Positions 20,129 to 25,656 of a stretch of DNA of 36,116 nucleotides are shown here, in pieces (within the stretch, counting starts at the first letter, position 1; each line of letters opens with the position of its first letter). A program made the position numbers and the translations under genes. Location of the stretch: NCBI GenBank assembly GCA_902523435.1, contig CABYZM010000014.1:1-36116 (forward strand), given 5' to 3'. The notes below the pieces were generated by a model. That model was not told the DNA's origin. It searched no databases and saw nothing but the letters and a program-made list of their open reading frames with translations. This DNA comes from an uncultured SAR116 cluster alpha proteobacterium. GTDB taxonomy: Bacteria > Pseudomonadota > Alphaproteobacteria > Puniceispirillales > Puniceispirillaceae.

Positions 20129-21439
20129 ATGCAAACACATTTTGATCTGAACGCTCTCGCTAGACCCGAGATAAGTACCGCAGATGAGATTTTGAGAAAA
20201 TGCGTGCATTGTGGCTTTTGCACCGCTACATGTCCAACCTATATTCTGACAGGTGATGAACGTGACAGTCCACGGGGCCGTATATGGATGATGCGTGATC
20301 TTCTTGGGGGCGGCGATAAACAGACTGAGATCAAGCCTGCAGATGTAAGTTATCATCTTGACAGATGTCTGACTTGCTTGTCTTGCATGACAACCTGCCC
20401 CTCGGGTGTGGATTACATGCATTTGGTGGATATTGGCCGTGCTGAAATTAATAAGAAAATACGCAGAGGATTCGCAGACCATGTCATCAGGACTCTTTTG
20501 TCCATAACCTTACCTTTTGCGCGACGCTTTCATTTAGCATTGCGGTTTGCGCGTCTTGCCAAGCCTTTTTCAGGGCTTTTAACTGGACGATTGAAAGCAA
20601 TGGTCAACCTGTCACCAACCCGTTTACAGGCATTGGATAAGGTGGGCAGTGAGGATCAGCTTTATCCAGCAGAAACATCTGCTGGGACGCGTGTTATGCT
20701 TCTTTCCGGCTGTGCGCAGCGTGCATTAGACCCGGAAATAAACGCATCAACAATACGGCTGTTGAACCGACAGGGCGTGGATGTTGTTGTGCGCAGCCAA
20801 GCCAGTTGCTGCGGGGCATTGGCCCACCATATCAACGCAGAAGATGCCGCGCATAAACAGATGGAAGCTGTTTGCTCAGCTTGGGAGAATGATATTGCCT
20901 CTGGCCAGCTTGATGCGATAATCGTCAATACATCTGGGTGCGGAACAACATTAAAAGATTACGGTAATCTTATGAGCAGGAATTCCCGCCATTCTGAGAC
21001 GGCAAGGAAGATATCTGACTTAACGATGGATATATCTGAATACTTAAACAGCAAGATGGCGCTTCCAACGTTGGCAAAACAGAATATGACCATTGCTTAT
21101 CATGCGGCATGTTCTTTGCAGCATGGTCAGAAAGTTCTGCAAGCCCCGAGGGCGTTGCTTGTGCAAGCGGGTTTTGAGGTGAAAACACCTGCGGAGAGTC
21201 ATTTATGTTGTGGTTCAGCAGGCGTTTATAATGTGTTGCAACCTGAACTGTCGCAGCAGTTAAAAGAGAGAAAGATTCGCAACCTGAACAAGGTTGGTGC
21301 AGATATTATTTGTGCTGGAAATCTGGGGTGTATTCATCAGTTATCAGATGCAAGCAGCCCGATTTGTCATACTATTCAGATCTTGGACTGGGCCTATGGT
21401 GGGCCAAAACCACACAGCTTGCTTAATGGGTTAGGTTAA
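20129..21439 (+). CDS. glcF: Glycolate oxidase iron-sulfur subunit GlcF
   Basis: A 436-residue subunit that carries electrons from the GlcD/GlcE flavins toward quinone. Two 4Fe-4S motifs are near the N-terminus ([12 protein letters not shown] and [12 protein letters not shown]). Cysteine-rich CCG domains follow, with visible [33 protein letters not shown] and [12 protein letters not shown]. Length and order match GlcF. Its ATG begins one base after the glcE stop. Its stop overlaps the 3' end of the convergent fumarase gene by nine bases. Confidence 0.95.
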
Positions 21440-23038
21440 GTCGAAAAAATCATTTCCTTTGTCATCGGTCACAATGAAGGCAGGGAAGTCGCGCACTTCA
21501 ATCCGCCAAACAGCTTCCATACCTAATTCTGGAAATTCCAGAACGTCAACTTTCTTTATGGATTCTAAGGCCAATTTAGCGGCAACACCGCCGATAGAGC
21601 CAAGATAGAATCCCCCATGTTTTTTACAGGCATCCTTGACCAGTTTTGAGCGGTTTCCTTTCGCTAGCATGACAAGCGACCCGCCAGCTTCTTGAAAGCG
21701 GTCAACATAGGAATCCATCCGTCCGGCTGTTGTTGGGCCAAAAGAACCTGAGGCCATGCCATCTGGTGTTTTAGCTGGGCCAGCATAATAGACAGGGTGG
21801 TTTTTGATGTAATCTGGCAGCGTTCCTGTGGTCTCAAGCTGTTCAAGCAGCTTGGCATGTGCAATATCACGAGCAACAATCATTGGCCCGGTTAGCTTCA
21901 CACGTGTCTTAACAGGATATTTTGTTAATTCTGCCTGAATCTCTGACATTGGCTTGGTCAGGTCAATGCTGATAGCGTTATCGTCCTTTGCATCACTTAA
22001 ATCAGGTAGATATTTTGCTGGATCGGTTTCAAGTTGTTCCAGAAACAAACCATCTTTTGTGATTTTAGCTCTGATTTGGCGATCTGCTGAGCAGGATACG
22101 CCAATACCGATAGGACAGCTAGCGCCATGACGGGGCAGGCGGATGACACGTACATCATGGCAGTAATATTTCCCACCGAACTGTGCCCCGATGCCAAGCT
22201 CGCGCGTCATTTTCAGAATTTCATCTTCCCAGTATGTATCGCGCCAACCATGGCCAGTCATAGATCCAGATTTTGGCAAGCTATCTAGATCGCGTATTGA
22301 GGCTTTTTTCACAACTTTCAGATTATATTCTGCAGATGACCCCCCAATGACTACTGCAAGATGATAAGGCGGGCAAGCTGCAGTGCCGAGGCTGACAATG
22401 GCTTCTTTTAAGAACTCTTTCAGTCCCTCTGGGGTCAGAACAGCCTTTGTTTTCTGGTACAAAAATGTCTTATTTGCTGACCCGCCACCTTTCTGAATAA
22501 AGGTGAATTTATATTCATCACCTGCACCAGCAGAGATATCAATTTGTGCAGGCAGATTATTAGCTGTGTTCTTCTCCTCAAACATGCTTAATGGTGCCAG
22601 TTGGGAAAAGCGCAGATTATGAGACTGATAAGTGTTATAAATGCCGCGTGATAGGGCCTCACCATCTGTGCCGCCGGTCAGTACACACTCACCGCGCTCA
22701 CCATTTATCAAAGCTGTCCCTGTGTCCTGACACATAGGCAGGACACGTTCTGCAGAAATCACCGCATTTTTTAGCATTTCAAGTGCAACAAATCGGTCAT
22801 TCTGGGTTGCCTCCGGATCATCAAGGATGGCGCGCAACTGTGCCAGATGTCCGGGCCGAAGCAAATGTGATACATCAGCCATCGCCTGTTCAGCCAAAAA
22901 TGTCAGCCCTGCAGGATCGACCTCGATGAATGTTCTGCCGCCAATTTCTGTGGATTTGACATAGTCGGTTGAAACGCACCTGTATGGGGTATCATCTTTT
23001 CCTGTCGGAAGAAGTGGGCTGTATGTAAATTGAGACAT
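21431..23038 (-). CDS. fumA: Fumarate hydratase class I (iron-sulfur, FumA type)
   Basis: A 535-residue TCA-cycle enzyme that interconverts fumarate and malate with an oxygen-sensitive 4Fe-4S cluster. Cysteine ligands are C103 (PMCQDTG), C222 ([10 protein letters not shown]) and C316 ([10 protein letters not shown]), each two positions below the E. coli FumA ligands. Both the alpha and beta domains are fused in one chain, as in FumA/Fum[14 protein letters not shown] marks the beta domain. The start at 23038 has a weak ribosome site (AGAGC). It lies 79 bases downstream of sspB on the same strand. The product, malate, would link with glyoxylate made by GlcDEF through malate synthase, which is not in the window. 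Confidence 0.95.
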
Positions 23039-23117
23039 TGTTTAGCTCTAATAATTTCAAAATTGACTGCCTAACGTTGCTCTACAGACCCGACAATGAA
23101 AAACCACATAACGCAGA

Positions 23118-23744
23118 TTATGATTTTGGGGCAGGGTCTTTTCGAAAACGATCAAGTGATACAATCTCTGCAGTTTCTGTTTCGTCGCTTTCGGTGTCCT
23201 TCTCATCGCTTGCTTCATCTGGCTCAAAAGTCGAGGAGCTGGTCAGCGCATTTTCGACCTCGTGTTCGGTTTGTTTCTGATCCAGCGCCTCAAGTTTTTT
23301 CTGATCCCCTCGCATGACTTCACGCAAAATCACAGGCTGATCGCTGTTTTCACTATCTGACTGTTTTTGGGGCTCATCAGGATTACTGAACTGAAGGCCA
23401 AACCCAACTGAGGGGTCAGTAAAGTGAGTTACGGCTGAAAAGGGGATTACAAGCTGGTACTGGACACCAGAAAAAGAAAGACCAACAGAAAATTGGTGCT
23501 CCTCAACGGTTAGGTCCCAGAATTGGTGTTGCAGGACAATAGTCATTTCCTGCGGGTTACCTTCTTTCAGAGTATCATCTAACTGAACCCCATCTGCTTG
23601 GGTACGGAAAGTAATGTAGAAGTGGGATTCCCCTAGCAGCCCATATTCCTGAACAATCGCCAGCGCGCCGCGCACAACGGTTCTTAAAGAATCTTCAACA
23701 AGAAGTTCATAATTAATTGAGCTGGTCTGATCCGAATCGCTCAT
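23118..23744 (-). CDS. sspB: ClpXP adaptor SspB (alphaproteobacterial type)
   Basis: A 208-residue homologue of SspB, the adaptor that binds ssrA-tagged proteins and hands them to ClpXP. The N-terminal substrate-binding domain (about residues 8-125) starts INYELLVEDSLRTVVRGAL, with the family pattern SHFYITFRT, LQHQFWDLTV and VPFSAVTHF-like VIPFSAVTHFTDPS. A long acidic, disordered linker follows (about 125-190). The C-terminal EIVSLDRFRK is in the place of the ClpX-binding tail. It lies about 50 bases downstream of the tmRNA gene on the same strand, so adaptor and tagging RNA are adjacent. The ATG is at 23744. Confidence 0.92.
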   Translation of the reverse strand: MSDSDQTSSINYELLVEDSLRTVVRGALAIVQEYGLLGESHFYITFRTQADGVQLDDTLKEGNPQEMTIVLQHQFWDLTVEEHQFSVGLSFSGVQYQLVIPFSAVTHFTDPSVGFGLQFSNPDEPQKQSDSENSDQPVILREVMRGDQKKLEALDQKQTEHEVENALTSSSTFEPDEASDEKDTESDETETAEIVSLDRFRKDPAPKS

Positions 23745-23797
23745 CTGCTAAAATCCATTCATCTCATCCAGCCTGATGGCTTAGGACAACTAATACT

Positions 23798-24129
23798 AGC
23801 GGGACCGCTTCTGTTGCCAGGTGCAGCCCCAAACCCCGCCTGACAGAGCTCAATCCGTCAGGACTTTAAAGTGGTTACGCCTGCTGCATTAAGCAGCGAT
23901 AGCAACCGGAGCAGTGTTGTCGTTTGCAACTACTACATGGCCCGATAACGGCGGGTACCATACCGAACGAAAATAATGCCTTTACCACATGCGTCGATCC
24001 TATTTCGCCCCCAAAATTCCTATTGCCCCTTGGGACGGCAGGTAGATTGGTGGAGGCGCCGGGTACCGCCCCCGGGTCCGCCCTGCTTATTTCACATTAT
24101 GTTTATCGTTATAGCCAGCCGAAGCTTGC
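23798..24129 (-). ncRNA. ssrA: tmRNA, circularly permuted two-piece form
   Basis: tmRNA rescues stalled ribosomes and adds a degradation tag. On the minus strand the acceptor piece comes first, ending in CGCCTCC-A-CCA (3' end at 24048). A 35-base spacer follows, then the coding piece begins GGGGGCGA at 24012. The two pair as a 7-bp acceptor stem with a G3-U70 pair, the alanine identity element. CCGGG-GGCGGTA-CCCGG before it forms the T arm. The tag frame is 23927-23889: GCA AAC GAC AAC ... TAA, encoding ANDNTAPVAIAA, with the first alanine of the finished tag coming from the tmRNA. The coding piece probably ends in the hairpin 23801-23830. The outer ends (23798, 24129) are estimates. Confidence 0.93.
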
Positions 24130-24135
24130 TTGATT

Positions 24136-24144
24136 ATTATAACA
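24136..24144 (-). promoter_or_regulatory. Extended -10 promoter of ssrA
   Basis: On the minus strand TGTTATAAT combines a perfect -10 hexamer TATAAT (24141-24136) with the TGn extension. The -35 region 17 bases upstream reads TTCATT, a weak match, as is usual with extended -10 promoters. Transcription would start near 24129, ahead of the acceptor piece. Confidence 0.6.
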
Positions 24145-24283
24145 GGCAAACAGGTGAAAATGAAAGTTTTTTGCCGCCTTTCACTGTTTTTTAACAAACA
24201 GGTTTATGACAAGCCTGGAAACTCTATCCTTGCTTTGCTAGTTTATTTTGGCAGATTCATCCTTAGGCAAAACAGAGAAACCA

Positions 24284-25081
24284 ATGCAGCAGTATCTTGA
24301 TCTATTACGCCATGTTAAGGACAACGGAACAGTTCGTTCAGACCGAACAGGTACGGGCACAAAATCTGTGTTTGGCTGGCAAATGCGTTTTGATCTTGCT
24401 AATGGTTTTCCTTTGTTGACGACAAAGAAGCTTCATACGCGGTCAATTATCCACGAACTATTGTGGTTTATTAAAGGCGATACAAATATTGACTATCTGC
24501 AGAAAAATGGTGTCTCAATATGGGATGAATGGGCGGATGAGCAAGGCAATCTTGGCCCTGTTTATGGCCAGCAATGGCGGCGCTGGCAAACCCCTGAGAA
24601 TGACCGTGTAATTGATCAGTTGGCAGACGTGGTTGAAGCCATCAAGACATCACCTGATTCCCGTCGTTTGATTGTATCGGCATGGAACCCCTCAGATGTG
24701 CCAGATATGGCGCTGCCACCCTGTCATTGTTTGTTTCAATTTCATGTTGCTGGCGGCAAGCTTTCTTGCCAGCTCTATCAGCGGTCGGCAGATATTTTTC
24801 TGGGTGTACCCTTTAATATCGCATCATATGCGCTTTTGACTCATATGATCGCACATGTCGCGTCCTTAAAAGTTGGTGATTTTGTGCATACGTTGGGAGA
24901 TGCACATCTTTACCTGAATCATATGGAGCAAGCTGAACTTCAGCTGACACGGCAGCCTGGGGCACTGCCCAAATTGATATTGATAGATCCACCTGAAACT
25001 CTTGATGCCTTCACATTTGGTCATTTTAAGATCACAGAATACGATCCTGCGCCGTCGATAGCTGCACCTATCGCAGTATGA
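24284..25081 (+). CDS. thyA: Thymidylate synthase
   Basis: A 265-residue enzyme that methylates dUMP to dTMP with methylenetetrahydrofolate. Motifs are [11 protein letters not shown] near the N-terminus (folate and phosphate site), the catalytic C147 in [23 protein letters not shown] and the C-terminal API-V end. Length and catalytic position match E. coli ThyA (264 residues, C146). The ATG at 24284 begins MQQYLDLL exactly where E. coli begins; a TTG at 24248 would add 12 residues without a ribosome site. Its stop overlaps the folA ATG as ATGA. Confidence 0.97.
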
Positions 25082-25656
25082 AGGCAAGCATGAAAAAACA
25101 AGCCCGTAATTTTCAGATGGCCCAAAGTTTCCACATGGTGTGTGTTGTGGCCATGGCCAAAAATCGGGTTATTGGTGATGGTAATGACTTGCTCTGGCAG
25201 CTTCCAGGTGACCTCAAGCGGGTAAAACAACTGACAATGGGTTGCCCGCTGATAATGGGCAGGCAGACATTTGATTCAATAGGGCGGGCATTGCCAGGCC
25301 GTTTGTCTGTGGTGATGACACGCGACAAGCACTGGCGGGCTGATGGAGCTGTTCCTGTTGCCAGCCTAGCGGCGGCCATTGATGTTGCAAAGGACTGGCT
25401 AATTGAGCAGAAATCAGGTGAGAATCGAATCATTTTATTTGGTGGGGGTCAGATTTATAAGGTTGGCTTGCCCTACTGCAAGACGATAGAGGCAACTTTT
25501 GTTGATGCTGAGCCAAGTGTGGGCGTTAAGTTTCCAGCATTTAATAGCCGGGATTGGGATGACAAGCTGCTGCAGCAGTTCGCCGCTGAGGGTGATATAC
25601 CTAGCTTTTCTTATCATCATTTAACGCGCAAACATGACGCTCTTTCTCTAAACTAA
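25078..25656 (+). CDS. folA: Dihydrofolate reductase
   Basis: A 192-residue NADPH enzyme that regenerates tetrahydrofolate after the thyA reaction. Motifs are [22 protein letters not shown], with the catalytic acid D45 and tryptophan W40, then [16 protein letters not shown] (cofactor loop) and LFGGGQIY. It has about 20 extra residues at the N-terminus compared with E. coli; the ATG at 25078 overlaps the thyA stop by ATGA and supports coupling, but an internal ATG (for example residue 14 or 20) could be used. The thyA-folA pair is a common functional unit. Confidence 0.95.

Follow-up and report, generated by a model that had tools for sequence, protein, structure and literature searches.

tmRNA tags stalled proteins, and proteins of the SspB family bind ssrA tags and deliver the tagged proteins to ClpXP. 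The tmRNA of Sinorhizobium meliloti consists of two pieces, an acceptor piece measured at 82 nt and a coding piece of 214 nt (PMC2873474), and a 2007 paper proposes that its own stem-loops act as a U-less terminator (PMC2245857). In Orientia, tmRNA accounts for 4.6-13% of bacterial reads (PMC7335160). The classic genomic pairing is that of ssrA with smpB, which form an operon in some bacteria (PMC4131195); the 2007 paper cites this conserved adjacency and places smpB of S. meliloti 1.1 Mb away from ssrA (PMC2245857). The same paper describes both tmRNA-flanking genes as conserved in Alphaproteobacteria and calls a functional association uncertain, and a table of 2008 gives the flanks as SMc01449 < ssrA > SMc01450, with SMc01450 left unnamed in the available part of that source (PMC2573895).

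Here we analysed a 36,116-nt stretch of DNA from an uncultured SAR116 cluster alphaproteobacterium (contig CABYZM010000014.1; hereafter the window), in which ssrA is followed by sspB. The tmRNA gene resembles those of Caulobacter, S. meliloti and Orientia in its permuted order, its pieces of 82 and about 214 nt, its own sigma-70-type promoter and its ANDN-type tag, but the sequence of the tag differs (ANDNTAPVAIAA). As at the rhizobial locus, the upstream gene is divergent and the downstream gene co-oriented, and both are conserved; in the available parts of the two rhizobial sources, however, the downstream gene is not named as sspB (PMC2245857, PMC2573895). The smpB-ssrA neighbours of many bacteria likewise place the tmRNA gene beside that of a protein partner acting in the same pathway, whereas the partner in the window is a degradation adaptor and lies downstream of ssrA. 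Both parts of the pair belong to known families. Our literature search, which was made without the original Caulobacter SspB paper, found no work joining the conserved tmRNA flanks with sspB, and we claim no priority.

The ssrA-sspB locus

The Rfam model alpha_tmRNA (RF01849) matched positions 23798-24168 of the minus strand over its full length (model positions 1-355 of 355), with 267.6 bits against a gathering threshold of 50 (E = 5e-77). The promoter region of ssrA takes up the first ~40 positions of the model, which places the 5' start of the tmRNA near 24129. The gene is circularly permuted: the acceptor part, with its CCA at 24048-24050, comes first and is followed by the coding piece from 24012 (Table 1). 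CGCCUCC of the acceptor piece pairs with GGGGGCG at the start of the coding piece; the third pair is then G-U, a known alanine identity mark. By analogy with known two-piece tmRNAs, the loop between the pieces would be cut out as the permuted precursor matures, and the mature molecule is predicted to consist of two separate paired pieces. ARAGORN did not detect the tmRNA at 23798-24129 despite its high Rfam score; permuted tmRNAs of this group can escape this program. A CTTTCA or CTTTTA element, 18-19 nt from the -10 box, is kept 5' of ssrA across the genus and is also present in some other members of the family, differing in others.

Table 1. Features of the ssrA-sspB locus in the window
Feature	Position	Strand	Basis or remarks
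Class I fumarase, next gene 3' of sspB; ancestral neighbour	21431..23038	-	family match
sspB, 208 aa	23118..23744	-	Pfam, PDB relatives, conserved core and tail
ssrA-sspB spacer, 53 nt	23745..23797	-	no hairpin with T-run, no promoter above shuffles, weak Shine-Dalgarno
tmRNA coding piece, 215 nt, begins GGGGGCG	23798..24012	-	RF01849 and sequence reading
Tag reading frame GCA...TAA encoding ANDNTAPVAIAA	23889..23927	-	sequence reading and family comparison
Intervening loop, 35 nt	24013..24047	-	RF01849 and sequence reading
tmRNA acceptor (tRNA-like) piece, 82 nt, ending CCTCCACCA	24048..24129	-	RF01849 and sequence reading; 5' end predicted
-10 hexamer TATAAT, ssrA promoter	24136..24141	-	within 5' part of RF01849 match
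-35-like hexamer CTTTCA, ssrA promoter	24161..24166	-	upstream conservation
thyA, divergent from ssrA; ancestral neighbour	24284..25081	+	family match
folA, follows thyA; ancestral neighbour	25120-25656	+	family match

The complete tag is A+ANDNTAPVAIAA; its reading frame ends in small hydrophobic residues (..AA) followed by the stop codon, and an identical or almost identical tag was found throughout the family. Across the class, tags differ strongly between lineages in length and in their middle part (for example ANDNEMALAA, ANDNYAEARLAA and ANDNTAPVAIAA), and sspB stays adjacent to ssrA despite this variation.

The protein encoded downstream matched PF04386 (SspB) with 142.8 bits against a cut-off of 27 (E = 1.1e-41), and its PDB relatives 2nys, 2qas and 2qaz, which include Caulobacter SspB, matched at 6e-27 to 1e-30. 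It consists of a tag-binding domain, a variable acidic linker and a conserved C-terminal EIVSLDRFRKD, a putative ClpX-binding end that aligns with VVSLDxFRKK in eight relatives. The core motifs QHQ[FY]W and DPSVxFGLxF and the C-terminal SLDxFRK tail are shared with SspB-alpha of Caulobacter and Agrobacterium; SspB of the window's genus differs from these in its longer acidic linker, and it is predicted to bind the ANDNTAPVAIAA tag. NCBIfam models gave no match to the window protein, as might be expected if the pairing were a product of chance or of annotation and the downstream gene did not encode a tag adaptor. The Pfam and PDB matches and the conservation of both core and tail argue against such an artefact, and chance does not explain linkage across the whole class (see below); we regard this explanation as having a negligible probability.

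Along the minus strand, the ssrA promoter is followed by the permuted tmRNA gene, a gap, sspB, a second gap of 79 nt and fumarase. A terminator scan of 22980-24400 on both strands found none, with shuffled sequence averaging 1.9. Promoter scoring in and near the gap gave CTGGCA-16-TAGTAT as the best site, which was equalled by 17% of shuffles; the site spans the tmRNA end, and its CTGGCA is conserved tmRNA sequence. The two genes therefore show the sequence features by which operons are recognized, namely a common strand, a short gap (53 nt) and no intervening terminator. These results uphold the initial annotation, which had placed a permuted ssrA at 23798-24129 and an sspB gene starting at 23744 on the same strand, about 50 bases apart and with no strong terminator between them. 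It had also named a terminator or a separate promoter between 23745 and 23798, combined with a lack of spanning transcripts, as evidence against shared transcription; the gap held no terminator and no promoter scoring above shuffles. SmpB was not found in the window's MAG, as is expected at 64% completeness.

Conservation of the gene pair in Alphaproteobacteria

Our class-wide survey covered 289 genomes and took the best 150 matches each to SspB and to alphaproteobacterial tmRNA, a limit that favours better-scoring genomes. Both genes were placed in at least 107 genomes among the matches listed, and in at least 99 of them both were on one contig. Among these 99 same-contig genomes, again for the matches listed, 97 have the two genes co-oriented, with ssrA 5' of sspB and no more than 12 kb away; in 76 it directly precedes sspB at a distance of up to 250 nt, counted to where the SspB domain match begins. 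Linkage was looser in the others, at 250-1500 nt in 8/99 and 1.5-12 kb in 13/99, and only two genomes had the genes unlinked. Counting one genome per family, the two genes were within 250 nt of each other in 38 of 50 families. All 55 testable loci of the window's order showed the adjacency (some genomes being counted twice).

A further set of 80 named genomes, chosen by SspB similarity, included Microvirga, Bosea, Mesorhizobium, Bradyrhizobium, Nitrobacter, Rhodopseudomonas, Parvibaculum and Candidatus Puniceispirillum. The tmRNA lay at most 300 nt upstream of sspB in 69 of the 80 and at 1149 nt in one; four were not assessable, and six had no recognisable tmRNA motif upstream of sspB. In four Methylobacterium genomes (L185, L202, L214 and L219), the 3 kb preceding sspB contain no recognisable tmRNA motif, and other Methylobacterium loci of the same set differ from them in this respect.

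From the class-wide, order-wide and named-genome counts, we conclude that the ssrA-sspB arrangement goes back to the ancestor of the class, or almost as far. The initial annotation had left open how widespread the adjacency is and had proposed comparing the interval across SAR116 and other alphaproteobacterial genomes; the answer is class-wide, and the objection that the arrangement might not be conserved in relatives clearly fails.

In three genomes (G297, G317 and G348), a contig begins ~250 nt away from sspB, and ssrA is either absent or truncated by the end of a contig. These look like assemblies breaking at ssrA, possibly at an inserted element or an assembly repeat. Because tmRNA genes often serve as island sites, we looked for integrases in six loci with separated genes; none was recognised from the starts of the ORFs, and the inserts between ssrA and sspB resemble ordinary genes by the same reading.

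Relation to the flanking genes

The block thyA/thyX - ssrA - sspB - fumarase is itself ancestral in the class. Many relatives carry fumC or thyX instead, and both were therefore added to the fumarase and thymidylate synthase controls. Among 29 tmRNA-anchored class loci, sspB was present in 19, thymidylate synthase in 13 and fumarase in 9, within 1.5-kb flanks that may cut off some fumarase genes. No locus had thyA/thyX without sspB and six had sspB without a thymidylate synthase gene, a 6-to-0 count that modestly favours the ssrA-sspB pair over the thymidylate synthase link. The pair outlasts its links to both thyA/thyX and fumarase.

These counts also bear on the idea that ssrA, sspB and fumarase form a single operon, with selection not acting on the pairing of tag and adaptor. 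The window's fumarase closely follows sspB on the same strand (79 nt), a class I or II fumarase is present in 29/29 loci of the order and 54/80 named loci, and fumC comes directly after ssrA in the sspB-less genomes of one family. Yet fumarase has been lost more often than sspB in the class (9/29 against 19/29 tmRNA-anchored loci), and we consider this larger operon improbable as an explanation of the pair. The sspB-less genomes (G049, G174 and G270; loci L260, L261 and L262) are near-complete, contain no match to sspB anywhere and retain thyA/folA - ssrA - fumC; judging from this order, sspB seems to have been precisely lost from between ssrA and fumC.

Transcription of ssrA and sspB

In 10 of the 32 families that we scored, only 7-42 nt separate the end of the tmRNA from the start of sspB, and in eight members of the window's order the distance is 13-36 nt; these short gaps depend on rule-chosen start codons, and one or two of the shortest look doubtful. 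A spacing of 7-42 nt is too short for sspB to have a promoter of its own after ssrA, and the sspB mRNA must therefore begin inside or upstream of ssrA in those genomes.

The absence of a terminator alone is weak evidence, because 21 of 30 genomes with sspB elsewhere also lack a canonical terminator after ssrA. In the same test, a terminator-like T-run behind the final tmRNA stem was found in 15/77 class genomes with adjacent genes and in 9/30 with separated genes, and we dropped this feature as a marker since it discriminates only weakly.

In two lineages of the window's order, f161 and genus g234 of f159, the tmRNA is closely followed by a strong terminator. The hairpin is GGCGAGAAG..CTTCTCGCC-TTTT in f161 and GGCAGGGG..CCCCTGCC-TTTT in g234. 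Eleven genomes of these lineages passed our terminator criterion, and in a further two the same hairpin carries a weaker tail. Among all genomes scored, the 13 highest promoter scores upstream of sspB belong to precisely these 13 genomes (loci L077, L079, L080, L084-L088, L090, L110, L112, L113 and L116), nearly all with TTGAAA or TTGAAC, 18 nt and a TATAAT-like box. Terminator and sspB promoter thus occur together in f161 and g234, and neither was seen elsewhere, the window included. The association amounts to about two evolutionary events, and both lineages are AT-rich.

The clearly separate signals of these sister lineages could be taken to mean that ssrA and sspB are neighbours by inheritance, the tmRNA ending at its own 3' hairpins and sspB being read from a promoter located within the coding region of the tmRNA. 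Such an ending would agree with the assignment of stems P6/P7 as a V-shaped terminator in S. meliloti (PMC2245857), and the last tmRNA stem-loop of the window is indeed strong. The candidate promoter would be the CTGGCA-16-TAGTAT site across the tmRNA end, but its score is not above chance and its CTGGCA is conserved as part of the tmRNA. No T-run follows the last stem in the window, and the 7-42-nt spacing in many families is as expected of genes read together. We therefore consider separate transcription rather unlikely, while noting that conserved adjacency can partly reflect inherited synteny.

Taken together, ssrA and sspB form an old conserved gene pair and, to judge from these signals, probably one transcription unit. 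Shared transcription, as suggested in the initial annotation, is thus indirectly supported by the missing terminator, the lack of an above-chance promoter in the gap, the short spacings and the joint gain of terminator and promoter in two lineages, and cotranscription is what we infer from them. The annotation had further supposed that the two tmRNA pieces are processed out of a longer precursor. Such processing is established for alphaproteobacterial tmRNAs generally (PMC2873474, PMC7335160), and a precursor reaching sspB would be an extension of it; the available portions of the literature on two-piece alphaproteobacterial tmRNA contained no description of one.

Discussion

The reading that we favour, and hold to be fairly likely, is that the pair is read from the ssrA promoter, at least partly into sspB, and that the RNA is then cut apart. 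Transcription would start at the conserved ssrA promoter and cross the permuted tmRNA gene, and polymerase would read on into sspB, at least in part. Nuclease cleavage of the primary transcript would release both tmRNA pieces, acceptor and coding, together with a downstream RNA, which may be the sspB mRNA with a leader of roughly 50 nt. Nascent proteins that stall would receive the tag (A)ANDNTAPVAIAA from the tmRNA, and SspB is predicted to bind such tags and to pass the tagged proteins to ClpXP through its conserved C-terminal tail. The gene linkage may thereby tie adaptor supply to tagging capacity, with processing or partial termination keeping SspB far below the abundant tmRNA. Partial termination at the tmRNA stem-loops with some read-through would fit both joint and separate transcription, and it would explain how an abundant tmRNA and a modest amount of adaptor can share a promoter.

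A bolder version, which we hold to be slightly short of probable, is that in most Alphaproteobacteria tmRNA maturation yields the sspB mRNA as a by-product, through read-through followed by cleavage at the 3' end of the tmRNA, and that 3'-end processing thereby sets the amount of adaptor. The two SAR116-related lineages would then have escaped this dependence through the joint acquisition of a terminator and a new promoter, and they offer a natural experiment in which related lineages have or lack both elements between the same two genes.

If the genes are cotranscribed, a single transcript would couple the writer and the reader of a degradation tag, with a non-coding RNA gene serving as the leader of a protein gene. 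Knock-outs of ssrA in Alphaproteobacteria would then be ambiguous, because deleting ssrA or its promoter may also lower SspB.
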